Below, piece after piece: positions 4,494-34,884 of a DNA stretch of 64,000 nt. Within the stretch, counting starts at the first letter, position 1; each line of letters starts with the position of its first letter. The stretch covers positions 2,824,001 through 2,888,000 of the forward strand of contig NZ_CP133548.1 in assembly GCF_031198435.1 (NCBI RefSeq), given 5' to 3'. The notes beneath the pieces are model-generated. The model made no database searches and was not told the origin of the DNA. It saw only the letters and a program-made list of their open reading frames with translations. The DNA comes from Pleionea litopenaei. GTDB taxonomy: Bacteria > Pseudomonadota > Gammaproteobacteria > Enterobacterales > Kangiellaceae. Made by a program: the position numbers and the translations under genes.

Positions 4494-4529
4494 GGTTTCC
4501 TCAATAAGTGCGCCCACCGCGCATATTAT

Positions 4530-4549
4530 GATTAAGCCTTTGCTTAATC
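4530..4549 (-). promoter_or_regulatory. perfect hairpin in the btuB leader
   Basis: Perfect 8-bp inverted repeat (GATTAAGC, loop of four, GCTTAATC) between the riboswitch aptamer and the btuB start. No U-tract follows, so it is not an obvious terminator. It may be part of the expression platform that controls access to the btuB ribosome binding site about 30 bases downstream. Confidence 0.45.
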
Positions 4550-4559
4550 TTTACTTCAT

Positions 4560-4682
4560 AATCTGTTGGCCGGTCTCCGGGCTAAAGTCACGAACGACTC
4601 ATTACCGTTGCGGGGGCAGCGATGGGATCTCACCATCTTCCCGTTACAATTCGATTCTTCGTCAAATCACCAAACAGGCTTT
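4560..4682 (-). promoter_or_regulatory. cobalamin riboswitch upstream of btuB
   Basis: On the minus strand the core GCTGCCCCCGCAACGG (4605-4620) and the B12 box AGCCCGGAGACCGGCC (4568-4583) are both present in the right order. A closing helix pairs CTGTT (4673-4677) with AACAG (4563-4567). This is the conserved cobalamin aptamer. It starts only about 40 bases after the btuF stop, so it can act as an internal switch inside a longer transcript as well as a leader. Repression of btuB, cobC, cbiB and cobD when adenosylcobalamin is plentiful is expected. Confidence 0.93.
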
Positions 4683-4722
4683 TGTTTTCAGTTATTGTAA
4701 TGTCCCGTAACTGAGTCGAGAT

Positions 4723-5583
4723 TTAGCGAGCCGAATTAATCGCCTCACAAAGTTGCTCTAGTCCATCGAGCGCCCGTGGCGTAAATCGATGTAGAATATC
4801 GCCATGAATAACAAAAAGGCGATTGTGTTGTACTGCGTGTATTTCAGGCCATTTATCCCAAATTTCCTGCTTACCCAAAGCGGAACCCGAATGGTGAGGG
4901 ATTATAATGACATCGGGGTTTTTCATGACCACCGACTCCATTGATACCACCGGATAATCACTGTCACTTTCGTTAAAAATATTTCTTCCGTTACAGTCTC
5001 GTATCATTGAAGATATCCAGCTTTTGGGTCCTAGTGTTCGTAAAGGATCATGCCAAAGTTGATAAAAGACTTTTACGGGTTTACTCGATTGATAGCGAGT
5101 GACTATTTTGTGGTATCTTTTATCGAGCTTTTCAACCAGCTGTTTCGCATTGTTTTGTAGATCAGTTGCGTCTCCGAGGCGTAGCAAATCTTTGCTGATA
5201 TCCGAAATATCCTTTGGCTCGGTATAAAACATTGTATATCCCAAAGATTCTAGTTTTCTAAGGTCGTCTTCTTTGTTGGTTCCTCTCGATGCAACTATTA
5301 AATCGGGATCGATCGCTATGATTTGTTCAAGCTGCACGCCAGTATAGCTACCAATACGAGGAATGGATTTAGCGGACTCTGGGTAATCTGCGTATTCAAC
5401 GGTTCCTTTAATTCTGTCGCCCGCGCCAATCGCATAAAGCATTTCGACTAGATGAGGTGTTAATGCGATGATTTTTTGTGTTTTAGAATTATCTTTTGAA
5501 GGCGTTTGAGCAGCGATGTTGACCGAAACGGAAACGCTGCTAAGCAAAAAGATAAAATGAGCGACGAGTTTAAAATGTTTCAC
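4723..5583 (-). CDS. btuF: periplasmic cobalamin-binding protein BtuF
   Basis: Periplasmic binding protein that hands corrinoids to the BtuCD transporter. The 286-residue protein has an N-terminal signal peptide (hydrophobic segment ending near NIAAQ). Helical-backbone binding-protein motifs follow: IIALTPHLVEMLYAIGAGDR, IPRIGSYTGVQLEQI and DPDLIVAS. The preferred start is a GTG whose first bases overlap the cobO stop (GTGA) with AGGAG seven bases upstream. A TTG one codon earlier is less well spaced. It closes the btuD-to-cobO gene run and is followed directly by the btuB riboswitch. Confidence 0.92.
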   Translation of the reverse strand: MKHFKLVAHFIFLLSSVSVSVNIAAQTPSKDNSKTQKIIALTPHLVEMLYAIGAGDRIKGTVEYADYPESAKSIPRIGSYTGVQLEQIIAIDPDLIVASRGTNKEDDLRKLESLGYTMFYTEPKDISDISKDLLRLGDATDLQNNAKQLVEKLDKRYHKIVTRYQSSKPVKVFYQLWHDPLRTLGPKSWISSMIRDCNGRNIFNESDSDYPVVSMESVVMKNPDVIIIPHHSGSALGKQEIWDKWPEIHAVQHNRLFVIHGDILHRFTPRALDGLEQLCEAINSAR

Positions 5584-6173
5584 CAATCAACTCCTTTGCG
5601 AGCTTTAATGCCGGCTTTAAATGCATGTTTTATATCTTTGATTTCGCTAACCGTATCGGCCATTTCTCTTAGTTCACTAATCGCTCCACGACCGGTCACG
5701 ATCACCGACTGTTGCTCAGGACGATTTTTCAAAGCCGCCAATACTTCGTCTTTTGGCAAGTAGTCGTAGCCGAGCATATAGGTTAACTCATCGAGTAACA
5801 CCAGGTGATACTGCGGATCATTTAAGAATATTTTGGCTTGTTCCCATACTTCAGTAGCCGCGGCAATATCGGCTTCTCTATCTTGAGTATTCCATGTAAA
5901 TCCGGTGCCCATGACGGCAAAGGGCACGCCATGTTGTTCAAGAAGGTTGCGTTCGCCGCAATCCCATTGGCCTTTAATAAATTGAACAACCGCGGCTTTG
6001 TATCCATGACCCACACAGCGAGCGACCGTTCCAAAACCAGCCGTACTCTTACCTTTGCCATTACCCGTGATAACCAACATGATGCCTTGCTCTATTTGAG
6101 CTTGGGCGACACGGGCATCGACTTTTTCTTTTTGTTTTTGCGCTTTAATTTTATGTTTTTGATTTCTATCCAT
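5580..6173 (-). CDS. cobO: cob(I)alamin/cobyrinic acid a,c-diamide adenosyltransferase CobO
   Basis: Cytoplasmic enzyme that transfers the 5'-deoxyadenosyl group of ATP to the reduced corrinoid cobalt (CobO/BtuR/CobA-Salmonella family). The P-loop GNGKGKST is at residues 37-44, followed by VVQFIKGQW and the LVLLDELTYML segment typical of the family. Length 197 matches. The N-terminus is lysine-rich. The ATG has AGGAG seven bases upstream and lies right after the cobQ stop. It can adenosylate incoming incomplete corrinoids, which fits a salvage cluster. Confidence 0.95.
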   Translation of the reverse strand: MDRNQKHKIKAQKQKEKVDARVAQAQIEQGIMLVITGNGKGKSTAGFGTVARCVGHGYKAAVVQFIKGQWDCGERNLLEQHGVPFAVMGTGFTWNTQDREADIAAATEVWEQAKIFLNDPQYHLVLLDELTYMLGYDYLPKDEVLAALKNRPEQQSVIVTGRGAISELREMADTVSEIKDIKHAFKAGIKARKGVDW

Positions 6174-6174
6174 A

Positions 6175-7659
6175 TTAGGACTCCTGATCCATTGATAGCT
6201 TTAGCAGAGCATCAATATTTAAGTGCTCTTCAAAACAGTCTGCTAAGCGATCCAATTCTTGCATTCGAATTTGGTTCCAGTTGATCGATTGAACACGCTC
6301 GCCTGAGACCCATTGAAGTAGGGAAGAGAGAAACTCAGGATGCTCAAATAAGCCGTGAATGTAAGTTCCAAAAATTTGCTGACAATCAGACACGGCACCG
6401 TCTGGGTAATGGTCACCAAATTGATCGTTAAGTTGACTAAAGGATTTCAGTGGCTCCTGATGAGTTGAGACGCCACAATGAATTTCATAGCCAGTGATCT
6501 TTCCGTGCATGGTGCCCAATGAAAAAGTGCCGGTGATCTGCTTGAGTTGTTTGTTCGGTCGTAATTCAGTGTCTATGGGTAACAAATTTAAACCCTCACT
6601 ACTGCCCGCAGTTGATTCGACGCCCATTGGATCACTGACACTTCGCCCGAGCATTTGATAACCACCACAAATGCCTAAGACTTTTCCGCCGAAGCGTAAG
6701 TGACGTTGTAAATCATGATCCCACCCTTGTTGACGAAATAACGTCAGTTCAGCTCGAACGTTTTTGCTACCCGGTATAATTATGAGGTCTGCCTTTCCTA
6801 ATGAGGAACCTGGGGGTACGAAGGTTAAATTTACCTTTGGGTGCCAACGTAATGGATCAAAGTCGGTATGATTACTGATTCTTGAAAGCACAGGTACTTT
6901 GATCTCAATATTGCCCCGATGATCTTGTTCGTCGACTTGAATGGCATCTTCTGCATCCAGTTTTAAATGGGGTAAGTACGGCAACACACCGAACACTGGT
7001 TTATTGCGATAGGTTTCTAGCCAATCTAAACCCGATTGCAATAAATCCAGTGAACCGCGAAATTTATTGATAATAAAACCTTTAATTCGATTTTGCTCCG
7101 ACGGCGAAAGCAAATCGTGAGTGCCGACAAGGTGTGCAAATACTCCGCCTCGATCGATATCACTGATCAAAACCACCGGACAATTGACCGCTTCGGCAAA
7201 TCCCATATTTGCAATATCGCGTGCGCGTAAATTAATTTCAGCAGGACTACCGGCGCCTTCAATGAGCACGACATCGTATTGTTGCTGCAACCGCCGATAG
7301 GATTCTAAAACGCGATCAAATGCTAACGCTTTGATTGAGCCAAATGTTTGCGCTTCAAGCTCAGACACCACCTGACCATGAATAATGACTTGCGAGCGTT
7401 GATCGCTGCTTGGCTTGAGTAACACGGGATTAAAATCGGTATGTGGCGCTAAGTCGCAGGCGAAAGCTTGCAACGCTTGCGCTCGTCCGATTTCGCCTCC
7501 TTCAGCGGTTACTGCACTATTTAGTGCCATATTTTGTGGCTTAAAGGGAGCGACAGACATACCTCGACGATGCAGTAAACGACACAAACCGGCGACCGTG
7601 ATGCTTTTGCCTGCATCGGAGGTTGTGCCTTGAATCATTAAACCATCGGGTAAAATCAT
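6175..7659 (-). CDS. cobQ: cobyric acid synthase CobQ
   Basis: Glutamine-dependent amidase that converts adenosylcobyrinic acid a,c-diamide to adenosylcobyric acid by four amidations. The N-terminal dethiobiotin-synthetase-like ATPase domain shows IQGTTSDAGKS and FKPQNMALNS. The C-terminal class I glutamine amidotransferase domain shows the nucleophile in LGICGGYQMLG and the histidine in TYIHGLFEH. The ATG overlaps the stop of the upstream phosphatase as ATGA, giving 494 residues; a GTG nine bases upstream is an alternative. Its presence without corrin-ring genes is notable. Confidence 0.95.
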   Translation of the reverse strand: MILPDGLMIQGTTSDAGKSITVAGLCRLLHRRGMSVAPFKPQNMALNSAVTAEGGEIGRAQALQAFACDLAPHTDFNPVLLKPSSDQRSQVIIHGQVVSELEAQTFGSIKALAFDRVLESYRRLQQQYDVVLIEGAGSPAEINLRARDIANMGFAEAVNCPVVLISDIDRGGVFAHLVGTHDLLSPSEQNRIKGFIINKFRGSLDLLQSGLDWLETYRNKPVFGVLPYLPHLKLDAEDAIQVDEQDHRGNIEIKVPVLSRISNHTDFDPLRWHPKVNLTFVPPGSSLGKADLIIIPGSKNVRAELTLFRQQGWDHDLQRHLRFGGKVLGICGGYQMLGRSVSDPMGVESTAGSSEGLNLLPIDTELRPNKQLKQITGTFSLGTMHGKITGYEIHCGVSTHQEPLKSFSQLNDQFGDHYPDGAVSDCQQIFGTYIHGLFEHPEFLSSLLQWVSGERVQSINWNQIRMQELDRLADCFEEHLNIDALLKLSMDQES

Positions 7660-8303
7660 ACGACACACCCAGCGCTATTTAGTTGAACCAGCTTCGGGAA
7701 CATCGTTTTATCTTCGAAATGAAATAAGGACAGCTTGGTAATACTGCCGTAGTCAATGGTAAGACGTTGAAACTGATGGCCGAGCTCGACAGTCATCTCT
7801 AAACACCAAGCGATAAGAGAACGAATAACCCCGGCGTGCGTAATAATCAATGTACTTAATGTCGGACAACCTTGTACTTGTTGACAAAAGCCGTTTACAA
7901 CCCTTTGATGAAATTCTAACAGGGGTTCTCCATCGGGAGGGGTGTGCTTACTTGGGTGCTGAAAGAAGGCGGAACTGTCTTCTGGATAGCGACGGTGGAG
8001 TTCAGCGTAGGTGAGTCCATCCCATGCACCAAAATAACACTCTTTAAGTCGCGAATCGAAGTCGATGGATTGATTAAGTTGATGACCCAGCTTCTCGGCA
8101 AAGGCTGCACAGCGTTGCAACGGGCTCGAAACGATACGCTCAATATCTGAAAGTTGATCACAGGCGACTTGCATTTGTGACCAGCCTAGCTCATCGAGAT
8201 GGCTATCGGTGTGACCGAGCAATGCATTACGTAACTGTGGCTGGCCATGTCGTAGCAAATATATGTGCTGTTCAATCGCTTTGCTGGGTGCTGAGTTAGT
8301 CAT
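7656..8303 (-). CDS. cobC: histidine phosphatase, probable alpha-ribazole phosphatase (copy 2)
   Basis: Second phosphoglycerate-mutase-like protein in the cluster, about 215 residues. The RHG motif is in YLLRHGQPQLRN and the second histidine is in LIITHAGVIRSL. It is embedded between cobU and cobQ, with start and stop codons overlapping both neighbours, so co-expression with nucleotide-loop assembly is near certain. This makes it at least as good a CobC candidate as the copy at 2037-2618. A start two codons upstream is possible, but GAGTGA is better spaced for the chosen ATG. Confidence 0.82.
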   Translation of the reverse strand: MTNSAPSKAIEQHIYLLRHGQPQLRNALLGHTDSHLDELGWSQMQVACDQLSDIERIVSSPLQRCAAFAEKLGHQLNQSIDFDSRLKECYFGAWDGLTYAELHRRYPEDSSAFFQHPSKHTPPDGEPLLEFHQRVVNGFCQQVQGCPTLSTLIITHAGVIRSLIAWCLEMTVELGHQFQRLTIDYGSITKLSLFHFEDKTMFPKLVQLNSAGCVV

Positions 8304-8847
8304 GATCATTCACTCTAGCAGTGGTGGTCGATTTTAACGTTAGTGGACAGCCAGCAACGACGAGTGTGACCTCCGTAGCAATGGCTGCTAATGCTTGATT
8401 TAACCAACCGGCTTGATCAGCAAACTGACGCGACAGCTCTCCCATTGGCACTATGCCGCTCCCGACTTCATTGGAAACGATGACGATAGGCTTTTGGCGT
8501 TTCAGTAACTCGTCAATTAACGCGTCCCTTTCTAGAGTGAATGCTTCCGGATCATGACTGCATAACCAGTTACTCAACCACAGGGTCATACAATCGAGTA
8601 AAATCACGCTGGAATTTTCGTTCGATGCAATCGCCTCTGCTAAATGAAAAGGTTCTTCAACCAGTCGCCAATGGTTTGGTCGACTGAGTTTATGTTGTGA
8701 AATTCGTTCAATCATTTCGTCATCGCCCATGGTGGCGGTGGCGAGGTAGGTCACAGGCTGGTGAGTGTCTTGTGTAAGATTGCTCGCGAGTGTCTCAGCA
8801 AAGTGGCTTTTTCCTGATCTTGCTCCACCGAGCACTAAATGTATCAT
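8296..8847 (-). CDS. cobU: adenosylcobinamide kinase / guanylyltransferase
   Basis: Bifunctional enzyme (CobU in Salmonella, CobP in Pseudomonas) that phosphorylates adenosylcobinamide and then forms adenosylcobinamide-GDP. The P-loop GGARSGKS is at residues 7-14. The conserved SNEVGSGIVP and the ADQAGWLNQALA segments are present, and 183 residues is the normal length. It is the entry point for salvaged cobinamide as well as a step after CbiB. The start codon overlaps the cobS... order neighbour: its downstream partner begins inside its 3' end, and its own ATG overlaps the cobS stop. Confidence 0.95.
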   Translation of the reverse strand: MIHLVLGGARSGKSHFAETLASNLTQDTHQPVTYLATATMGDDEMIERISQHKLSRPNHWRLVEEPFHLAEAIASNENSSVILLDCMTLWLSNWLCSHDPEAFTLERDALIDELLKRQKPIVIVSNEVGSGIVPMGELSRQFADQAGWLNQALAAIATEVTLVVAGCPLTLKSTTTARVNDHD

Positions 8848-9617
8848 TTCACGGCTCCAAATTGAGTGACCAAGACGAGGTAGATAACGATTTCAATAAC
8901 CTGTTGAGTGCAACCAAGCGTGTCTCCCGTAATGCCGCCAAGTTGACGTTGAAACAGCAAAGCGCAAACACCAGTCACGGCAACACAACTGATCATCAAA
9001 GGCAGAAGGGCATCGGGAAAAATCAGTAACGCGGGTGCTGCAATGATTAAATTGCATAGCAACTCGTTAAGCCGCATATGATGAGCGATTGGTTTAGATT
9101 TAGAGGATAACTCTGAGCTGACGTAAGGCATGAAATAAATTAATGCGGATGACATGGCTCGACTTAAAGGATGCGCAACCAGCAAAACCAATGCAATATT
9201 TGGCAAGTGTTGTAAGGCAATGAATTTGGTGGTCAATACGCTCCATAAACCGAGTGCTCCGTAACTTCCTAAGCGCGAATCTTTCATGATGTCGAGTTTT
9301 TGTTCCTTGGTCCAGCCACCACCTAAGCCATCACAGGTGTCGGCCAATCCGTCTTCATGGAAACCTCCAGTCAGAAACAATCCAGCGATCATGGTGAGTA
9401 GAATGGCGAGGCCTTGTGGCAACCAATGACTGAGCGTAAGGAAAATAAGTGCGCTAGCCGCCGCGATGATCCATCCAACGAAGGTGAAATATCGAGCACT
9501 ACTATTGAGCCGCTGCGGGCTGTATTCGAGCTGTTGCGGCATCGGGATTCTAGTAAAGAATCCGATCGCCAACGCCATTAGGCTGATCTGGTGTCGAATA
9601 GGGGCAGCCCAATTCAT
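8844..9617 (-). CDS. cobS: adenosylcobinamide-GDP ribazoletransferase (cobalamin synthase)
   Basis: Polytopic inner-membrane enzyme that joins adenosylcobinamide-GDP to alpha-ribazole or its phosphate, forming adenosylcobalamin (phosphate). The signature HEDGLADTCDG lies near residue 85, followed by KDSRLGSYGALGL. The 257-residue length and the many hydrophobic segments fit the family. The start follows the cobT stop by one base and its own stop overlaps the cobU ATG. Confidence 0.95.
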   Translation of the reverse strand: MNWAAPIRHQISLMALAIGFFTRIPMPQQLEYSPQRLNSSARYFTFVGWIIAAASALIFLTLSHWLPQGLAILLTMIAGLFLTGGFHEDGLADTCDGLGGGWTKEQKLDIMKDSRLGSYGALGLWSVLTTKFIALQHLPNIALVLLVAHPLSRAMSSALIYFMPYVSSELSSKSKPIAHHMRLNELLCNLIIAAPALLIFPDALLPLMISCVAVTGVCALLFQRQLGGITGDTLGCTQQVIEIVIYLVLVTQFGAVK

Positions 9618-9618
9618 G

Positions 9619-10656
9619 TTAAACGCTCACACCGGCCGATTCAAAGCTGGCCATGTCATTGTAGAAGCTGGCTGCTGCTCGCAATAAGGGTATCGCTAAG
9701 GCCGCTCCGGTTCCTTCACCTAGTCTCATTCCTAGGTTTAATAAAGGCGTTCCGCTGAGACTTTTAAGCATACGCTGATGACCCTGCTCATTAGATTCGT
9801 GGCAGAAAACCATATAATCAGCGACATTGGGCGCAATTTTTTGGGCAAGTAATGCGGCTGCCGTGGTGATAAAGCCATCCACTAAAATGACACTTTTGGC
9901 CTCCGCTGTTGCCAACATGGCACCGGCGATCTGACCTATTTCAAAGCCGCCAAGATTGGCCAGTATATCGATCGGACAATGTAACTGTTGAGCATGTAAT
10001 TGCAACGCACGTGCAACGACATTCAGTTTACGTTGCAGCGCTTCATCGGTTATTCCGGTGCCTCGACCAACGCATTCGTCAGCGGGGATTTTTAATAGAG
10101 CGGCCATCATGGCAGCAGCACTTGAGGTATTCCCTATGCCCATTTCACCAAAACCGAGAGTATTACAGCCTTGGCGAAGAAAGGTTTGCGCGATTTCATG
10201 ACCGGCGAGCAACGCCTGTTCTGCTTGTGAGCGTGTCATCGCCGAATGTTGCGAGAAGTTTTGCGTGCCACGAGCGATGGCTTGCTGAATCAAGTCGGGA
10301 TGATCGATCGCCGTCATAATGCCAGCATCGATCACGGAAAGCTCAATTTCAGAACTTCGACAGAAGCAGTTGATGGCCGCACCGCCGTGCAAAAAATTCA
10401 ACACCATTTGCGCGGTAACCGACGAAGGAGCAATACTGACGCCTTCTTCTGCGATTCCATGGTCAGCTGCAAACACTAAAATTCTTGGCGCTTGAATCGT
10501 GATTGAACTTGGCCCAAGAATGGATGCTAATTGTGTTGCGAGTGTTTCGAGCTGGCCAAGAGAGCCAGGCGGTTTTGTTTTCTGGTCGATTCGCATTCGA
10601 ATGGACTTGTCGTGTTGACGATCCAACGATGAAATATTGAAAGAGTCTGTAAACAT
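9619..10656 (-). CDS. cobT: nicotinate-nucleotide:dimethylbenzimidazole phosphoribosyltransferase
   Basis: Makes alpha-ribazole 5'-phosphate from nicotinate mononucleotide and the lower-ligand base. Family motifs include KPPGSLGQLE, FAADHGIAEEGVS and, near residue 314, RLGEGTGAALA with the catalytic glutamate. The chosen ATG (MFTDSFNIS) lies 13 bases after the btuC stop and gives 345 residues, close to family size. A longer reading would overlap btuC and add an unrelated hydrophobic leader. No lower-ligand synthesis gene (bluB) is seen here. Confidence 0.94.
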   Translation of the reverse strand: MFTDSFNISSLDRQHDKSIRMRIDQKTKPPGSLGQLETLATQLASILGPSSITIQAPRILVFAADHGIAEEGVSIAPSSVTAQMVLNFLHGGAAINCFCRSSEIELSVIDAGIMTAIDHPDLIQQAIARGTQNFSQHSAMTRSQAEQALLAGHEIAQTFLRQGCNTLGFGEMGIGNTSSAAAMMAALLKIPADECVGRGTGITDEALQRKLNVVARALQLHAQQLHCPIDILANLGGFEIGQIAGAMLATAEAKSVILVDGFITTAAALLAQKIAPNVADYMVFCHESNEQGHQRMLKSLSGTPLLNLGMRLGEGTGAALAIPLLRAAASFYNDMASFESAGVSV

Positions 10657-10669
10657 AATCAGTGTTAAC

Positions 10670-11704
10670 TTAGTTAATATCGCGTTGACTGCGCGACTTA
10701 AGAATGACAAAAAAGAAAAAACTTCCCACAGCTGAAGTGACAACGCCGACGGGCAACACCTGATGCTCTAGCAATGAGCGAGAAATAACATCGACCCAAA
10801 TCATAAAAGCGCCACCCAGTAATGTGCACAACCACAAAATACGATGAATTTGTGCACCAATTAAAAAGCGACACATATGCGGGATCATTAATCCTACAAA
10901 TCCAATGCCACCAACATGGGCAACCAGCACGGCAGTGATCGCTGAGCAGATGATTAACATAATTAAACGCAATTGGCCGACCGGCACACCCAAGGTGTGA
11001 GCGCTTTCTTCACCCGCTTGAATCGCCGATAACCAACGCCGAAAAAATAAAAAGATAGTGAGGCCGACGATCACAAAAATGTAGGGAAGCCACAGTTCAC
11101 TCCATTGACTGTTTGAGAAACTGCCCATCATCCAAAAAAGTAACGAAGCCGCTATTTCTGGTTTGGAGTAATACAATATCAAACTGGTAAACGCACTTAA
11201 CATAAATGAAACAGCCACACCGGCGAGTAACAAACGTTCGACGTGTGATGCTGCTCGACCGGCAAGCATTAACATGAGCGCAACTGAAAATGCGCCACCA
11301 ATTAGCGCACCAAAAGTCACGGATAAAATTGCACCGGGAACCAATGCCATAACAGTGACCGCCCCTAAAGCTGAGCCAGATGAAATACCAAATAAGTAAG
11401 GATCAGCAAGTGGATTTCTTGTTACGCTTTGTAAAATCGCGCCGCAAATGGCTAAGCCAGAACCGGTAACCAATGCCATCAAGATGCGAGGAAATCGAAT
11501 TTCCCAAATGATTCGCTTTTCAATGGCCGTTACATTGCAAGCGCTATTGCAGGTAAGCGCTTGGTAGACTTGCGACAATGTTAATTCAACACTGCCACTC
11601 GCTAAAGCCAGCGCAAAAGTCAGTAATAGAAATATTGCAGCAGCGATCACTATGCTGGTGTAGTGAAGGCTAAAGCCATGCTGTTTGACAGCGTGATAGC
11701 TCAT
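10670..11704 (-). CDS. btuC: corrinoid ABC transporter permease BtuC
   Basis: FecCD-family inner-membrane permease, 344 residues, with about ten hydrophobic segments. The family motifs RNPLADPYLFGISSGSALGA and GGIGFVGLMIPHMCR are present, the latter being part of the coupling region to the ATPase. Its ATG overlaps the btuD stop (ATGA). The family also carries siderophores; the assignment to B12 comes from the riboswitch, btuF and the surrounding cob genes. Confidence 0.92.
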   Translation of the reverse strand: MSYHAVKQHGFSLHYTSIVIAAAIFLLLTFALALASGSVELTLSQVYQALTCNSACNVTAIEKRIIWEIRFPRILMALVTGSGLAICGAILQSVTRNPLADPYLFGISSGSALGAVTVMALVPGAILSVTFGALIGGAFSVALMLMLAGRAASHVERLLLAGVAVSFMLSAFTSLILYYSKPEIAASLLFWMMGSFSNSQWSELWLPYIFVIVGLTIFLFFRRWLSAIQAGEESAHTLGVPVGQLRLIMLIICSAITAVLVAHVGGIGFVGLMIPHMCRFLIGAQIHRILWLCTLLGGAFMIWVDVISRSLLEHQVLPVGVVTSAVGSFFFFVILKSRSQRDIN

Positions 11705-12489
11705 GACGGCTTAGCCAAATTAAAGGTAATTCTTTGCCCATCATGAAATGGATGCGAATCAACGGCACTACTCACCCCAAACACATCAGCAATATGTTTT
11801 TCACATAAGACTTGTTGTTTGTCACCATCCGCAACGATTCGACCATGATCTAAAAGTATCAAGCGATCGCAAAATGCGGCCGCTAAGTTTAGATCGTGAA
11901 TACTCACGATAACGGTAATCTTTAATGAGCGTGCTAAATGTAAAACTTCTAGTTGATGGCGAATATCAAGGTGATTCGTTGGCTCATCCATTAACAGCAC
12001 TTGTGGCTGTTGCACAATCGCTCTAGCAATCATTGCGCGTTGTTTTTCGCCGCCCGATAAACTATTGAAGTTTTGTTCTAATTTATCGTTTAAATCGACT
12101 TGCTTGCAGGCCTTTACGACACGATCTCGATCGTCACTGGTATCGAAGTCCAATAAACCCTTGTGTGGAGTAAGTCCCATGGCGATGACGTCAAATACTG
12201 TTAATTCGAATTGGTTTGGGGGTTCCTGCAATACAACCGCCACTTTTTGTGCAAGTTGTTGTCTTGAATACTCAGCAAGGGATTTTTGTTGAAAGGCTAG
12301 AGTCCCGCGGGTGGGAGTGATCTTTCGATAAAGGCAGCGCAACAGCGACGACTTACCGGCACCATTAGGGCCTATCAGGCCGACAAACTCACCCTGACCA
12401 ATCGCAAAGCTTAAGTCATTAAGAATAAGTTTATCTTGTACCTGCCAAGATAAATGTTGTGCGGTATAAACCGGATGTTCGACTGCCAT
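11701..12489 (-). CDS. btuD: corrinoid ABC transporter ATP-binding protein BtuD
   Basis: ATPase of the corrinoid importer, 262 residues. Walker A GPNGAGKSS lies near residue 40, the signature LSGGEKQR near 145, and Walker B VLLMDEPTNHLD. It is the first gene of the riboswitch-controlled run. Its Shine-Dalgarno sequence GGAGT, six bases before the ATG, sits in one arm of a small hairpin (12495-12512), which suggests translational control by the riboswitch. Confidence 0.93.
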   Translation of the reverse strand: MAVEHPVYTAQHLSWQVQDKLILNDLSFAIGQGEFVGLIGPNGAGKSSLLRCLYRKITPTRGTLAFQQKSLAEYSRQQLAQKVAVVLQEPPNQFELTVFDVIAMGLTPHKGLLDFDTSDDRDRVVKACKQVDLNDKLEQNFNSLSGGEKQRAMIARAIVQQPQVLLMDEPTNHLDIRHQLEVLHLARSLKITVIVSIHDLNLAAAFCDRLILLDHGRIVADGDKQQVLCEKHIADVFGVSSAVDSHPFHDGQRITFNLAKPS

Positions 12490-12494
12490 TTTTA

Positions 12495-12512
12495 CTCCGA
12501 AAATGGTCGGAG
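12495..12512 (-). promoter_or_regulatory. Shine-Dalgarno-sequestering hairpin of btuD
   Basis: On the minus strand CTCCGA, a 6-base loop and TCGGAG form a perfect 6-bp stem. The 3' arm contains the GGAG ribosome binding site of btuD, and the ATG follows six bases later. It is well placed to act as the output stage of the riboswitch at about 12620-12785. The pairing is visible in sequence; the regulatory role is inferred. Confidence 0.6.
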
Positions 12513-12619
12513 CAGGGAGAGGGTGAAGCGGTAATCAGGAGTCAAAACGTGAGACAGGTCTGTTTAGCGCAGCACCGAGTAGCCCGCTCGGAAAATACTG
12601 ACGTAAAGCACTCTAAGGG

Positions 12620-12785
12620 CGTTACGTTTACGGCAGGTCTCCTGACTTACAGAGTTTGCCTCCAGGCCCCTTCCCAAACACCTACACGTGCTCAGTGGAG
12701 TCGCCTTTCGCTCTGTTTACAGTTGCGGGTACAGTCACGGATTTTCACCGTGTTCCCTATTAAGTGCAAAGCACACCGAAATCTG
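12620..12785 (-). promoter_or_regulatory. cobalamin riboswitch upstream of btuD
   Basis: The minus strand shows the conserved order of a cobalamin aptamer: AATAGGGAACACGGTGAA, then AATCCGTGACTGTACCCGC followed by AACTGTAA, and the B12 box AAGTCAGGAGACCTGCC at 12632-12648. Between them lies a variable arm. It heads the btuD-btuC-cobT-cobS-cobU-phosphatase-cobQ-cobO-btuF run. About 130 bases separate the B12 box from the btuD start, including a hairpin over the ribosome binding site. Confidence 0.96.
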
Positions 12786-29191: not shown

Positions 29192-30559
29192 CTAATCAAA
29201 TAACGGCATTAAAGCTGTGTACAGCGCTTCAGGTATTCGTTGTTTCGACAATTTTGCACACACTTGATGCAGCTCTTTTTGTTGTGACTTTTCTAAATGT
29301 TCTATCGATTTCTGAAAGTCTGTCGCATGAATAGAAAGCGAGCGTCGGTCTGCGTGAGTCAACTGAGAGATTTGTTGATAGCAAAACAAAAAACGACCAA
29401 TAATGACATAAGGAAAATTTTTATGAATGATTGGTCCATAATGCGCAGTAAATCCGCCTAAAGGAAGCCCTTTAACTTTTAGATTGACGATTTTATCGGA
29501 TGCAAAGTAGGCACTGCTACCGCCTAACAATCCGCCGCCGATGGCTCCTAACATAAAACTATGACCTGCAACGGCGAGATCGACGGCAGCACCACTAACT
29601 GCACCAGCAACGGCAGCGGCAATCACTAATTGCTTTTTATTGAGTCCCCAAGCGTACCAGTGATCACAATCAAAGAGATCCGGTGGTAATTCTAGCTGTT
29701 GTATTGAAAATTCCGTATTTAAGTGAGCATAGTTTGCGAGTAACTCTTGTAAGGCTAAGGATTCTCGTTGCTTAATATCGCTTGTAAAACGCTTCTGTAA
29801 TATTGGCTCAATTGTCTTTGCCTGATCTTCTGTAAGAACCTTCTGCTCTATTTCATGGGTGCAAACGTCGGTTAACAGCCGACATAATAAATTAACGCTA
29901 TTGCGTTTTCTTTGTTCGAAGTTTTCCTGCAAAGCATTTGCGATCTTTTCTAATTGATTTCGCCAAGATGAATTTAAGTGAGCAAATACATCCAGCAGCT
30001 CAATTTGTTTAGTATGATCGGCAAGCATAGGGTTAAATAGGGTTACTGATTTAAAAAATTGATGCAGAGCACGCTCCCACTCATCCACAAAATCACTGTT
30101 TTGAATGGGATTGATTAACGCCATACTCGGCTGACCTGTCCAAAGCAGAATTTCCATTTCCGTCTCATAACTCTTCGAATAAGGACGTGAACCATCGACC
30201 ACGTAAAGGATTGCTGCACCTTGTACAATGGGTGTTAATAACTCAACTTCATCGGGAAATTGTTGCTGACATTCTGGGTCATCAATGAATTGGCGTAATG
30301 TGGCTAAGCGCTGACTTGCATCACCACAGCGTTCCTTTAGCCAAGTTAATACTTTTGTCGGTCGTTGGAACCCCGGTGTATCGATCAGTTCATAACTTCC
30401 TTGAGCCGTACTAATCGTATATCGTGTGGCTTTTTCGGTGGTACGGCTGCGATGGCTAATCGCAACGGCATCATTTTGTGCAAGTGTCGCCACGATTGAC
30501 GACTTTCCTTTGTTTGGGTGACCAACCACTGCAAATACTGGCATTGTTGTGTCTTTCAT
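29192..30559 (-). CDS. membrane-associated GTPase with DUF3482
   Basis: 455 residues. The N-terminal Ras-like GTPase domain has a P-loop variant GHPNKGKSS, the switch threonines in SRTTEKATRYT and the G3 motif IDTPGF. The usual NKxD base-specificity motif is replaced by NPIQNSD. The C-terminal DUF3482 part has a glycine-zipper-like hydrophobic segment around residues 315-350 (AVAGAVSGAAVDLAVAGHS). Its ATG overlaps the stop of the DUF2868 gene, a common pairing of these two families. Function unknown; a membrane stress or transport role is possible. Confidence 0.78.
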   Translation of the reverse strand: MKDTTMPVFAVVGHPNKGKSSIVATLAQNDAVAISHRSRTTEKATRYTISTAQGSYELIDTPGFQRPTKVLTWLKERCGDASQRLATLRQFIDDPECQQQFPDEVELLTPIVQGAAILYVVDGSRPYSKSYETEMEILLWTGQPSMALINPIQNSDFVDEWERALHQFFKSVTLFNPMLADHTKQIELLDVFAHLNSSWRNQLEKIANALQENFEQRKRNSVNLLCRLLTDVCTHEIEQKVLTEDQAKTIEPILQKRFTSDIKQRESLALQELLANYAHLNTEFSIQQLELPPDLFDCDHWYAWGLNKKQLVIAAAVAGAVSGAAVDLAVAGHSFMLGAIGGGLLGGSSAYFASDKIVNLKVKGLPLGGFTAHYGPIIHKNFPYVIIGRFLFCYQQISQLTHADRRSLSIHATDFQKSIEHLEKSQQKELHQVCAKLSKQRIPEALYTALMPLFD

Positions 30560-31704
30560 TATGACATTGTGTCCTGTGCCGATGAGTTCTCTGAGGTGTT
30601 ATTGAACGGTGGTTGAAACATATTCCATTGCGTCAGTTGTGCGGTGAAGCGTTGCCACTCTTCACAGTCTTTTTCTTCGAGCTCTATGACGTTGTTATGC
30701 TTAAAGTCGATCGGGTAAAGGAATCCATTATGTTCCTTTAAAAAATCTTCAAGCTCTCCAATTGGGGGTTCCCAAGCTTTGACCAATACGAGCAACGAGC
30801 GTTCTGTTTGATCGGGTGTGAGGTCGCTTATTTCGATGAGCGGAAAATTCTTGATAGCCGAAACGTTAGAGAGTTCTTGTTGAGAAAATTCAGCCCAATT
30901 AACCACACATAATTCATTGGGCAATTCATGAACAATGTCTGCATGAACAAAAGACGTTGATGGCGTTTTTTGATGACGATTGATCGTTTGTTTTAATTGC
31001 TGCTCAAAATCATTCTTGATTTGTTGTGCGATGATCCAGCGAATCGGCAGTATCATAATTAGGCGTAATAAGAGTGAATAACACAATTGTGTCGCGAGAA
31101 TGAATTTCCACCAGTGACTAAATTCCGGATTAGCAGAATTAGGGACCATGAGTCGATTGTCTTGCGTAGCGATCAATAGTGAAAGATCAGGCTGGGCTTC
31201 TGACCAGAATTGCCAAGGCGTGGCCAGCCATTTTAAGAAAGGATGAATGTCTTCAGGAGACAATATAGTACTTCGCCACACAAAATTTACATCACTGCCA
31301 AGTAGTAACAATAAAAATGTAACTAACCCTCCGCAAGCATAGAATATGGCTGCGTATTGGCCTTGAATGAACAGCCAATGTCGGTCTATTTTTAATTGTT
31401 GCATTTGACGCAGCGTTTGCCTTTGAGCATTGCTGAGTAAGGGCAGTTTAACCACTAGGCTGGCAAAGCTAATGCCACGCTTAGTCATTAATGTGATCAT
31501 AGAAAGTAGCGCTGTTATTAAGGGTATGAAAACAAAAATAAAGAGTAAGTAGAATAAATTGACGCGGCCAAGTTGATCGCCACTGACAATGCTGAAGCTC
31601 AAAAAACAGCCCACTACAAACCCAGATAATGCTATCGGCCAAACTAACTTTAAAGGAGAAAAACCGGATGTAAGTGTTGTTGAATGAATGCTCAAGCAAT
31701 GCAC
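30559..31704 (-). CDS. DUF2868 membrane protein
   Basis: 381-residue membrane protein with helices near residues 20-45, 45-70, 118-140 and 205-230, then a soluble C-terminal part. It is the usual partner of the GTPase/DUF3482 protein, and the two genes overlap. Start is a GTG with an in-frame stop two codons upstream; a TTG three codons in has better ribosome-binding-site spacing. It seems shorter at the N-terminus than the family members I recall. Function unknown. Confidence 0.72.
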   Translation of the reverse strand: MHCLSIHSTTLTSGFSPLKLVWPIALSGFVVGCFLSFSIVSGDQLGRVNLFYLLFIFVFIPLITALLSMITLMTKRGISFASLVVKLPLLSNAQRQTLRQMQQLKIDRHWLFIQGQYAAIFYACGGLVTFLLLLLGSDVNFVWRSTILSPEDIHPFLKWLATPWQFWSEAQPDLSLLIATQDNRLMVPNSANPEFSHWWKFILATQLCYSLLLRLIMILPIRWIIAQQIKNDFEQQLKQTINRHQKTPSTSFVHADIVHELPNELCVVNWAEFSQQELSNVSAIKNFPLIEISDLTPDQTERSLLVLVKAWEPPIGELEDFLKEHNGFLYPIDFKHNNVIELEEKDCEEWQRFTAQLTQWNMFQPPFNNTSENSSAQDTMS

Positions 31705-31818: not shown

Positions 31819-32337
31819 TTAGAAGTGAACGGCAAACTCTAATCCTGAAAACCAGTCTTGATTGTCGGTCAAGTAGAGTCCATCTATGTACCGATAGCGC
31901 GAAAATACTCGTATATCGACATTATCAGTGGATAGACCAACCCCCGCACCCATAAAAAAGTCAATCTCATTCCGGTCTTCGTCGTAATAGTAGTAGTCGT
32001 GATGACGATCGTCGTAGACCAACATCTCACCAATATCGATACCAGCTTCCATGTAAATCTGAATGTCTGAAAACAGCCCAATTCTAGCGAAGCCTTCCCA
32101 AGCGCCATAATTATCAACATAGCCATCGAAATCGGTGATTTCCGCCCGTGAAATACTGGTTCCAAGTTGGAAGCCTAAATGACTATGGGGATCGGAGAAC
32201 TGGCTGTAAAGGTTGAGAGAGGTAATATCGCCGATATCTGCAAATTCTCGGCTGACCGACATACCAAAGGTGTTTTCAGCGGAAGCTGAGTTAAATAAGG
32301 CGCTGAAAAGCGCAAAGGCTAAGATAAAGCGATGCAT
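31819..32337 (-). CDS. small outer-membrane beta-barrel protein
   Basis: About 172 residues. A signal peptide (MHRFILAFAL to NSASA) is followed by alternating hydrophobic strands typical of eight-stranded barrels and ends in HF. One predicted loop is unusual: VYDDRHHDYYYYDEDRNE, with two His, four Tyr and several acids. The ATG has GAGAG about six bases upstream; another ATG lies 12 bases earlier. Function unknown; it resembles OmpX/porin-family-like small barrels in layout only. Confidence 0.68.
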   Translation of the reverse strand: MHRFILAFALFSALFNSASAENTFGMSVSREFADIGDITSLNLYSQFSDPHSHLGFQLGTSISRAEITDFDGYVDNYGAWEGFARIGLFSDIQIYMEAGIDIGEMLVYDDRHHDYYYYDEDRNEIDFFMGAGVGLSTDNVDIRVFSRYRYIDGLYLTDNQDWFSGLEFAVHF

Positions 32338-32502
32338 GGTGTCTCTCATTTCAGGATTATGTTAAGGCAAGTTTAGTTGAATATAGCTGAACGAAATCTT
32401 AACCGGCGCAGGAAGGATAAATGATAACTTGAGATAGCCAATACTATCTGCGACTATAAGTTAGAGGGGTTTTATTCGGCGTCAGACCGAAACTGGAAGG
32501 AT

Positions 32503-34251
32503 ATGAGTAATTCAAACGATACGAAAGCGACTCAAGCAATGGAGTCAGCTGCTGCGACTGCTGGTAGCCGGCTGACGCAGCTCGCGCAACGGTTGCAATC
32601 TCAACAAACAACCGATGGGTTTGCTAAGGCCCGAGAAGATGTTAATCGAGCGCTAGCCGAAAAGAAAATTATTCTCAATAAACGCTTTGTTCTACAAGAA
32701 ACACTTGGATCAGGCGGAATGGGAACCGTGTATCTCGCCCAAGATTTGCGAAAAGTTGAGGCGACCGATCTTAATCCTTACGTCGCGATCAAAGTACTTA
32801 GTGGAGATTTTAAAAATCATCCGGATGCTTTTATCGCTCTGCAACGAGAGGCCAGTCGCTCTTCTAATCTATCGCACCCAAACATTGTAACGGTTTACGA
32901 TTTTGACCGAGATAATGACACCGTTTACATGACGATGGAGCTGCTTCAGGGTGAAGATTTAGATGCATTAATGCGACGTAAGCAACCGATGGGACTTGAT
33001 AAGTCAGAAGCGAAGAAAATCGTCTTAGACTACTGCCGAGCGCTGAATTACGCTCATCAAAAAGGCATCATTCACTGTGATCTTAAACCCGCAAATATCT
33101 TTATCACCGCTGAGGGCGCTAAAGTCTTGGACTTTGGTATCGCGCGGCTCGCTCGAAAAACAGCTGACCATTTTGATGCCGGCAAAATCGGAGCACTGAC
33201 ACCCGACTACGCATCTCCTGAGATGTTTGAAAATGCTCCGCCCGATCCTAGAGATGACGTGTTCGCTGCTGCGGTCATCGCGTATGAGCTATTTGCCGGA
33301 AAACATCCTTTTGATAATAAATCCGCCATGACCGCTAAGACTTTAGGCATGCAGCCAGAACCTATTAGTGGACTTAATAAGCGAGAGTGGAAAGCACTTA
33401 GCCAGGCTTTGGCGCTCGATAAAGAACAACGAACACCTTCGATCATCGCCTTTATAAAGCAACTGGCTGGTAGTAAAAAGCAACCTTTGATTTACACAAC
33501 CGTGGCATTGTCGTTAGTCACTCTATCAGTCTTGGGCTATTCAATCTTTAAAGCACAGCAGCGCAGTCAGAAAATTGAGTCGACGATATCTGAACTGAAA
33601 AATTGCCAGTCATCGGGTAATTTTGAGTGTGTCGTCGATCAGGCGAACACTTTGCTAGGATTAGAGCCAAATGATGAGTTTGCCAAGGCCGCTTTAGAGA
33701 ATGCAAAATTATCCTTGATTGCGCAGCAACAACAGTTAGCCATTGAAAAGTTGCTTAACAAGGGTAAGCAGTGTCTTGAGCAGCATAATTTCGTTTGTAT
33801 TGATGAGATCTATTCAGACATTATTAAGCTAGACTCAAGTAATGTTGCCGCGACTGAGTTAAAGACACAGGCAATGGAACTTCAGCAAGCGTTGCAAACC
33901 CAATTTACTGAGTTACTCTCTGAGGCTGCGGCCTGTTTCGATCGCAAGCAATATCAATGCGCTAAAGAAAAAGCAAATGAAGCTCTGGCCATCTTGCCGG
34001 GAGACGCTCTTGCTCTTGCAATGATAAGAGATGCAGAAAATGCGGTTATGATTCAAGAACAATCACTAATAAAAGCGCAAGCGATGGTTGCAGAGGGGCA
34101 ACAGTGTTTCGATAAATTCGACTATAGTTGTGCTATTGCAAAGGCGGAATCAGCCATGGCATTTATTGAGAATTATTCTGAAGCTGTAAATTTAAAGCGA
34201 CGTGCAAAAGCCGCGATTGCAAAAGCAAAAAAAGATATCCGAATTGACTAG
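32503..34251 (+). CDS. membrane Ser/Thr protein kinase with cysteine-repeat periplasmic domain
   Basis: 582 residues. The Hanks-type kinase domain has GSGGMGTVY (69-77), VAIK lysine 97, alpha-C region LQREASR, HCDLKPAN (191-198) with catalytic Asp193, and DFG 210-212. The residue before the catalytic Asp is Cys, not Arg, so this is a non-RD kinase. A membrane helix spans about 328-349. The remaining 230 residues contain four helical repeats of 54-57 residues, each with a Cys-x7-Cys pair (368/376, 424/432, 478/486, 535/543), arranged like TPR or Sel1-type units. The gene is followed directly by a lipoprotein gene and may act with it. Confidence 0.88.
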   Translation: MSNSNDTKATQAMESAAATAGSRLTQLAQRLQSQQTTDGFAKAREDVNRALAEKKIILNKRFVLQETLGSGGMGTVYLAQDLRKVEATDLNPYVAIKVLSGDFKNHPDAFIALQREASRSSNLSHPNIVTVYDFDRDNDTVYMTMELLQGEDLDALMRRKQPMGLDKSEAKKIVLDYCRALNYAHQKGIIHCDLKPANIFITAEGAKVLDFGIARLARKTADHFDAGKIGALTPDYASPEMFENAPPDPRDDVFAAAVIAYELFAGKHPFDNKSAMTAKTLGMQPEPISGLNKREWKALSQALALDKEQRTPSIIAFIKQLAGSKKQPLIYTTVALSLVTLSVLGYSIFKAQQRSQKIESTISELKNCQSSGNFECVVDQANTLLGLEPNDEFAKAALENAKLSLIAQQQQLAIEKLLNKGKQCLEQHNFVCIDEIYSDIIKLDSSNVAATELKTQAMELQQALQTQFTELLSEAAACFDRKQYQCAKEKANEALAILPGDALALAMIRDAENAVMIQEQSLIKAQAMVAEGQQCFDKFDYSCAIAKAESAMAFIENYSEAVNLKRRAKAAIAKAKKDIRID

Positions 34252-34266
34252 GTGAGGTTAACTATT

Positions 34267-34884
34267 ATGATCAAAAATCATCAACTACCCATAGCGGTGT
34301 TTGTCTGTATAACACTGGCCTTAACTTCGGGTTGTAAAAGCAAACATTTAAAAACAATTGGAGCCATTATCGCTGTCGGAGTGGCGGCTAAAATAATTTA
34401 TGATATGGTCATCGCTCAACGCAGTGAGCAAACTGAGAACGACCAAAAGGTTGTTGAGAAATACAAAAAAGAATTTAAGCAATTACCTGCTGAACCACAG
34501 TTAATCAATTATGAGTCGTCAATAATGCCGGGTGCAGTTGTCAACCCAGGTAATTCTGTGTCCATTCAATCGAGTTTAGAAGTTGTTCGAGGAAGTACTA
34601 CCGAATTGGTCGAAATTAAAGAAAGAATTACAATTTATGACAATGAAGATCCTACCAAACCATTAAAGAGCTTAGAGAAAGTTATTAATCAAGAGACTCA
34701 AAAATGCGGCGCATTTAAAAATGAATTTACTTTTACCTTGCCGAAAGGAATGCCACAAGGAGTTTACCCGGTAACAACCACGGTTATCGTTGATGGAAAA
34801 GAATTTTCCGCAGTTCAAAATAAAATGCAATTAGTTCAAACTGGCAACTTAATTAACGCTAACGAGTTAATCGCAGCTAATTGA
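34267..34884 (+). CDS. putative lipoprotein, kinase partner
   Basis: 205 residues with a lipoprotein signal (LALTSGC) and a hydrophobic segment right after the cysteine (IGAIIAVGVAAKIIYDMVI). The rest resembles an immunoglobulin-like domain ending in a strand-rich pattern (GVYPVTTTVIVDGKEF). I do not recognise the family. It lies 15 bases after the kinase gene with GAGG upstream of the ATG, so it is co-transcribed; a periplasmic partner of the kinase is a reasonable inference. Confidence 0.68.
   Translation: MIKNHQLPIAVFVCITLALTSGCKSKHLKTIGAIIAVGVAAKIIYDMVIAQRSEQTENDQKVVEKYKKEFKQLPAEPQLINYESSIMPGAVVNPGNSVSIQSSLEVVRGSTTELVEIKERITIYDNEDPTKPLKSLEKVINQETQKCGAFKNEFTFTLPKGMPQGVYPVTTTVIVDGKEFSAVQNKMQLVQTGNLINANELIAAN

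Follow-up and report, generated by a model that had tools for sequence, protein, structure and literature searches.

Organization of the locus

In a 64,000-nucleotide stretch of the Pleionea litopenaei genome (contig NZ_CP133548.1, positions 2,824,001 to 2,888,000; the whole of this stretch is hereafter the window) two adjacent genes encode what looks like a receptor kinase of a familiar type, in a conserved form that has not yet been described. The first specifies a protein of 582 residues with a Hanks-type Ser/Thr kinase domain, a single predicted transmembrane helix and a C-terminal stalk of four helical hairpins, each carrying a pair of cysteines; the second specifies a predicted secreted partner, which abuts the kinase gene without a gap or, if translated from its ATG, begins 15 bases after it. 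The features are as follows.

32503..34251 (+): membrane Ser/Thr kinase, 582 residues, with a putatively disulfide-stapled periplasmic stalk of tetratricopeptide repeats (TPRs) (open reading frame; Pkinase E = 1.2e-43; 14-member alignment; 28 scan relatives)
32689..33459 (+): Hanks-type kinase domain, predicted cytoplasmic, residues 63-319 (Pfam PF00069 match over 63-319)
33073..33081 (+): catalytic loop HCD (non-RD), residues 191-193 (sequence)
33490..33546 (+): single predicted transmembrane segment, residues 330-348 (hydropathy 1.64)
33550..34248 (+): predicted periplasmic rod, residues 350-582, in which long helices carry four TPR hairpins (AlphaFold2 model, pLDDT 96.7; TPR matches; TPR consensus positions)
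33604..33630 (+): Cys pair 368/376, hairpin 1 (sequence, alignment, model)
33772..33798 (+): Cys pair 424/432, hairpin 2 (sequence, alignment, model)
33934..33960 (+): Cys pair 478/486, hairpin 3 (sequence, alignment, model)
34105..34131 (+): Cys pair 535/543, hairpin 4, the membrane-distal and most conserved repeat (YSCAIAK) (alignments, model)
34252..34884 (+): secreted partner, predicted lipoprotein (open reading frame; likelier start ATG at 34267; lipobox Cys codon 34333-34335)
34498..34833 (+): predicted immunoglobulin (Ig)-like beta-sandwich domain of the partner

Relatives of the kinase were compared in overlapping sets. The stalk alignment was used to scan GTDB species genomes, and 28 loci were found by the pattern [DN]YSCAIAK; this pattern requires a cysteine in the last repeat and is a selection effect that bears on the counts given below. 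Hairpins were counted in 32 proteins, comprising the window protein, those of the 28 scan loci and three others (L105, L126 and L127), each with at least three pairs of cysteines separated by seven residues (CX7C); no protein was reported lost by this rule. A separate 14-member alignment includes 14 of the 17 proteins found in 16 genomes of the same family, and those omitted from it, which also stand outside the hairpin count, are L022 (genome G008, five CX7C pairs), L025 (the second kinase copy of genome G011, again with five) and L024/L026 (genome G016), an interrupted frame with three CX7C pairs in its longer part.

A non-RD kinase domain with one transmembrane segment

The HxD and DFG motifs are present in all 32 proteins, the catalytic Lys in 30 and the Gly-rich loop in 29. 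The misses correspond to sequences cut at an edge (L064 and L105) or to an upstream frame break (L068, Gly-rich loop only), and in the complete sequences the catalytic motifs are intact. The original prediction, made from the letters of this stretch alone, described a kinase with HCD in place of HRD, and this is confirmed at residues 191-193; the 32 proteins, the window's included, have HSD (16 proteins), HCD (9) or HAD (7) and never HRD, such that the whole set is non-RD. Among the six kinase paralogue loci of the window genome, four have HRD, and in L004 and L006 no loop was matched by the pattern. The cysteine of HCD was considered as a redox element and rejected, as Ser or Ala occupies its position in 23 of the 32 proteins.

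One hydrophobic segment follows the kinase domain in 30 of the 32 proteins, with those of L055 and L065 falling below the hydropathy threshold of 1.6, which the window segment (1.64) barely exceeds. Provided that the kinase is cytoplasmic, a single transmembrane segment would place the repeats outside the cytoplasm, as had been supposed originally; the topology rests on this proviso because the positive charges flanking the window segment are evenly balanced, three on each side.

Cysteine pairs are invariant in the stalk

The window kinase contains ten cysteines, two in the kinase domain (178 and 192) and eight in the C-terminal half that form four exact C-x7-C pairs. The original prediction located these eight residues, together with their coordinates (33604-34131), exactly, and the spacings between successive pairs (56, 54 and 57 residues) bear out the 54-57-residue repeats with one pair each that it described. 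When eight cysteines were placed at random in a 233-residue stalk, four or more pairs at +8 arose in 3 of 200,000 trials, and of the 57 stop-to-stop frames of at least 150 amino acids that the window contains, no other carries more than one CX7C motif.

All eight cysteine columns are invariant in the 14-member family alignment and also in 29 of 29 aligned stalks, at stalk identities to the window as low as 21%; the latter alignment has 218 columns free of gaps, of which 17 are invariant, and 8 of those 17 are the cysteines. In the 32 proteins described above hairpins number four, five or seven per protein, both cysteines are kept in 148 of 148 hairpins, and no unpaired cysteine occurs in 8678 residues. 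The pairs are predominantly CX7C (142), with four CX8C and two CX12C. Both cysteines are thus retained despite changes in loop length and in repeat number, which is the behaviour expected of a bonded pair. L126 and L127, which were found through the partner profile instead of the cysteine pattern, still have five of five pairs. Of the 142 hairpins that are exactly CX7C, 123 have Phe or Tyr two residues before the second cysteine, in keeping with the aromatic-x-Cys pattern predicted earlier; this residue is the usual aromatic of TPR position 17.

We note that the window genome (G000) has three DsbA-family matches (L117, L118 and L119), and of the two that were read one has the motif CPGC and the other, which is lipoprotein-like, CPHC.

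The stalk is predicted to be built of single TPR hairpins

An AlphaFold2 model of the stalk, computed from the window sequence and its 28 scan relatives (mean pLDDT 96.7), predicts helices at residues 2-22, 25-38, 43-77, 81-94, 99-131, 135-148, 153-188, 192-205 and 210-229 (stalk numbering), with single hairpins strung on helices of 33-36 residues. The first cysteine of each pair (19, 75, 129 and 186) lies 2-3 residues ahead of the end of its helix, and the second (27, 83, 137 and 194) is the third residue of the helix that follows. With the cysteines so placed at the end of helix A and the start of helix B, and with the pairs invariant, the intra-repeat disulfides that the original prediction envisaged very probably form.

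A TPR is a helix-turn-helix with small residues at positions 8, 20 and 27 and a proline at 32. The residues surrounding the cysteine pair in the 142 exact hairpins fit this consensus (Ala or Gly at 8, Tyr or Phe at 17, Ala at 20, Ala at 27 and Pro at 32), which puts the cysteines at TPR positions 11 and 19; the stalk profile aligns with designed TPRs in the same register, and single hairpins superpose on the solved TPRs 4xi0 and 5mzu. Pfam family TPR_14 matches 19 of the 29 stalks (E up to 0.1; best E = 2.2e-5), as does Alkyl_sulf_dimr, with a better best E of 9.3e-10. The window's own stalk gave no TPR match in the Pfam scan, and a sequence search of the PDB with a single stalk returned one chance match only (E = 0.82). 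Neither the Pfam list of the window protein nor the part shown of that for the stalks (25 of 37 families) includes Sel1. The case that the original prediction had set against itself, that of ordinary TPRs with cysteines not conserved, is thus half realized: the repeats are TPRs, but their cysteines are invariant.

Superposition of the whole stalk on TPR superhelices gives template modelling (TM) scores by query length of mostly 0.16-0.25, with a best of 0.34 among the 50 matches shown, and we read the model as a series of separate TPR hairpins on a rod instead of a stacked superhelix. An unstacked hairpin loses much of the support of its neighbours, so that one staple per hairpin would be a sensible design.

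A linked gene encodes a secreted Ig-like partner

A homologue of the partner is present at all 28 scan loci, directly downstream of the kinase and on the same strand in 27 of them, and adjoins the kinase at each of 14 family loci, a set that overlaps the scan loci. The exception is L059, in a genome with two kinase copies, where the partner adjoins the other copy. When all frames of 100 amino acids or more from the 28 scan loci and the window were compared with one another, no third conserved gene emerged: only the kinase and the partner are found at all 29 loci, and among the 14 largest clusters the only other families represented at more than five of the 29 are frames antisense to these two. 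The suggestion that the adjacent lipoprotein belongs to the system is supported, and it is quite likely that kinase and partner are functionally paired. Two metagenome-assembled genomes (MAGs; L059 and L105) carry a second, seven-hairpin kinase copy with no partner beside that copy, and the one partner match in the L105 genome lies beside its other kinase copy.

By the rules for lipoboxes, a lipobox-like cysteine ends the signal sequence of the partner in Pleionea and Aliikangiella members; the partners of Cellvibrio, Haliea, Halioglobus and Chromatocurvus have no such cysteine and look soluble and secreted. The partner has no Pfam or NCBIfam match above curated cut-offs, and the Pfam matches across 27 members are all weak, with a best E of 0.012. 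Its model (pLDDT 85.5) comprises an uncertain N-terminal helix and an Ig-like sandwich with generic structural matches. No cysteine is conserved in the alignment of 27 members (27 of 29 rows, or 26 in a later alignment; L055 and L074 are cut at contig ends, and L061 has an unread residue). A role for it as a thiol partner was considered and is disfavoured, the extra cysteine of the window partner not being conserved.

Homologues of the partner also adjoin a zinc-ribbon membrane protein with no kinase at two of two loci, L130 (8794-10751, on a Mycetohabitans megaplasmid) and L131 (5857-8421, with the zinc ribbon below the Pfam cut-off); three more Mycetohabitans plasmid matches stand outside this count. 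These loci would represent a second context for the partner fold.

Distribution of the module and its distant relatives

A query with the C-terminal half of the kinase finds a match in all five genomes of the genus, in 16 of the 40 family genomes (three of six genera) and in 14 of 394 in a sample of the order, all 14 in the same family; each count includes the window genome. The scan loci include Pleionea mediterranea, Pleionea sediminis, Aliikangiella coralliicola and A. marina, and further Cellvibrio, Marinibactrum halimedae, Haliea and Halioglobus MAGs, and Chromatocurvus. Genomes with a match to the partner profile number 2 of 369 in a sample of the class, 3 of 398 in a sample of the phylum and 5 of 293 in the order to which Cellvibrio belongs. 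The two-gene module is thinly scattered over several gammaproteobacterial groups. The stalk profile matches more broadly (28 of 369 genomes of the class sample at E up to 0.001; the best apart from G000 and G636 has E = 3.6e-18), and the one weaker match that was read, L079, is an HRD kinase whose repeats are TPR-like and lack CX7C.

The closest outside pair found is L132, whose kinase is 49% identical over 263 residues and whose partner homologue is 25% identical over 135 residues (E = 2e-18). This pair adjoins genes for TagF and PP2C, with a VipA match about 28 kb away on the same contig, and its layout is that of the threonine phosphorylation pathway of type VI secretion systems (T6SS). The single matching TPR of this kinase lacks both cysteines, that local alignment alone not being significant. 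Within the T6SS-type cluster (genome G1242, 3664-12664) two related non-RD (HSD) kinases flank the partner homologue, and the second of them bears an FGE-sulfatase domain. The only T6SS marker tested, VipA, is without a match in the window genome and matches 9 of 18 tested genomes that carry the stapled module, from which it follows that the module does not need a T6SS.

Elsewhere in the window, positions 31819-32349 (-) encode a secreted-looking protein of 176 residues without a Pfam match; this protein lies near the module in four of five same-genus genomes, on the opposite side in one. On the opposite strand (29192-31704, -) a DUF3482 GTPase is tightly paired with a DUF2868 protein.

A proposed stapled receptor kinase under control of its partner

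We favour, with reasonable confidence, the reading that the window encodes a receptor kinase like PpkA and PknS, with a periplasmic rod permanently stapled by intra-hairpin disulfides and an activity controlled by the partner. The module would place a non-RD Hanks-type kinase inside the cell and a rod of four single TPR hairpins outside, joined by one transmembrane helix. In each hairpin the cysteine at TPR position 11, at the end of helix A, would bond with that at position 19, at the start of helix B, in a disulfide that a DsbA-type oxidase introduces a single time. With the hairpins isolated on the rod and not stacked into a superhelix, these bonds may serve as permanent staples, and it is quite probable that they are structural rather than switching; the retention of every pair in proteins with five or seven repeats is what a structural role would predict. 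The distal, most conserved hairpin (YSCAIAKxES) is the likeliest docking site for the secreted Ig-like partner, which would be lipid-anchored in the window's organism, although we give docking at this repeat about an even chance. Docking or release would alter the pairing of kinases across the membrane and so switch autophosphorylation, a mode for which there is precedent in that periplasmic partners are thought to act in this way on PpkA.

Some points weigh against this reading. The linkage of the two genes is one-sided, as partner homologues also lie beside the cysteine-free kinase of L132 and at the kinase-less L130 and L131, and our confidence is slightly lowered for this reason. The domain architecture, the TPR identity of the repeats, the invariance of the pairs and the linkage of the genes are results of computation; the disulfides, the docking of the partner, the overall rod shape, the direction of signalling and the substrates are inferred, and redox sensing remains a rival.

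A rod that reaches toward the outer membrane could alternatively act as a tether or ruler, holding a lipid-anchored partner at its tip so that the kinase reports envelope spacing or the integrity of the outer membrane. The long continuous helices of the AlphaFold2 model, the high conservation of the distal repeat and the lipobox-like cysteine in the partners of the window and its closest relatives are all compatible with this, and TssW and TagQ of the PpkA pathways are outer-membrane proteins (PMC12607579, in the text available). The five longer helices laid end to end would extend over 145 residues x 1.5 Å, or about 218 Å, but this is only an upper bound on the length of the rod; moreover, rods of four, five and seven repeats all occur, and the partners of Cellvibrio and the other genera named above look soluble, so that we regard a ruler as improbable.

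Equally doubtful is a bolder possibility, in which the module is a checkpoint for oxidative folding or envelope geometry: the rod would grow by whole stapled units, from four to seven, and present an invariant distal TPR to the partner across the periplasm, with the kinase firing when staples fail to form or the Ig-like partner is pulled away. If this is true, it would define a class of receptor kinases whose signal depends in part on a modular length locked by disulfides.

The original prediction saw in the cysteines a disulfide- or redox-sensing stalk. On such a reading the disulfides would be reduced or reshuffled under envelope stress, loosening the hairpins, and the kinase would report the redox state of the periplasm or a failure of oxidative folding. 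In its favour, the eight cysteines are paired and lie in a compartment that is oxidising, and all counted pairs are kept; DsbA-family matches are found in the window genome, a rod able to fold only in the oxidised state could in principle signal that DsbA has failed, and a kinase with an extracellular DsbA-like domain is reported in another bacterium (PMC1262709, in the text available). But no pair is distinguished from the others and proteins with additional repeats keep every one, the partner has no conserved cysteine, the cysteine of HCD is variable, no gene family beyond kinase, partner and antisense frames recurs at more than five of the 29 loci in the clusters listed, and solved proteins with such a motif use it as a staple (PMC12904459, in the text available). 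This part of the original prediction is not supported, and we consider redox sensing unlikely.

That the kinase is a PpkA of the T6SS threonine phosphorylation pathway with a periplasmic activator is most improbable, for although genes for TagF and PP2C adjoin the nearest outside pair found (L132), the loci have no T6SS gene family in common among the clusters listed, and VipA is patchy among module genomes and has no match in that of the window, for whose organism a T6SS link is disfavoured.

The module delineates a family of receptor kinases that can be recognised as such and whose partner gene is fixed, and it offers a clear way to test what is sensed by a TPR stalk in the periplasm. The cysteine-free homologous pair in a T6SS-type cluster suggests a possible shared origin of a secretion-control cassette and a stand-alone receptor, and the CX7C-stapled TPR hairpin is a repeat unit that may be useful in the design of stable repeat proteins.

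Comparison with known systems

Bacterial TPR kinases have been noted since 2005 (PMC1262709, in the text available); a search of titles and abstracts in PubMed Central, a partial library and hence weak evidence of absence, found no paper on a cysteine-paired TPR kinase. Hairpins with internal disulfides are known from proteins of other kinds. Csep1P of Campylobacter concisus and HcpB and HcpC of Helicobacter pylori have TPR-like alpha-alpha hairpins, each with its own disulfide; in the available text on Csep1P these are solved (Cys59/68, 97/106 and 156/165, spacing CX8C) and said to lie at the same place in HcpB and HcpC (PMC12904459). These proteins differ in having no kinase and in forming compact solenoids, whereas the window repeats are 54-57 residues apart on long helices. 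The HcpC disulfides are described as inter-repeat in one source (PMC3851747) and intra-hairpin in another (PMC12904459), in the portions available of each, a discrepancy that probably reflects where the start of the repeat is set. Cysteine-rich helical repeats also occur in Helicobacter CagY, with bonds that are shown to be important and are unmapped in the text available (PMC2581425). P58IPK (DNAJC3), a TPR co-chaperone of the endoplasmic reticulum lumen, likewise resides in an oxidising compartment and has inter-helix disulfides (Cys248-258 and Cys313-329), but according to the available text it has only these two, not one per hairpin, and no kinase (PMC3143134).

The layout of the window protein, with a kinase, a transmembrane helix and periplasmic TPRs, is that of PknS and the ECF43-associated kinases. 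PknS (XAC4127) of Xanthomonas citri similarly joins a cytoplasmic Hanks-type kinase through one transmembrane helix to periplasmic TPRs, and when truncated to lack its periplasmic part it does not complement; it differs in acting on the sigma factor EcfK and in having three Pfam TPRs, and neither cysteine pairs nor a secreted partner are described in the available text (PMC13147305). PknS is a precedent for periplasmic TPRs on a kinase.

For the partner, a close parallel is PpkA with RtkS, TagR or TssW, likewise a receptor kinase with a dedicated secreted partner that acts from outside. In the text available, RtkS binds the periplasmic domain of PpkA and TagR probably activates PpkA by contact (PMC6082577), and TssW binds and positions PpkA (PMC12607579). 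The window system differs from PpkA in that its genome has no VipA match and in its stalk, a predicted stapled TPR rod.
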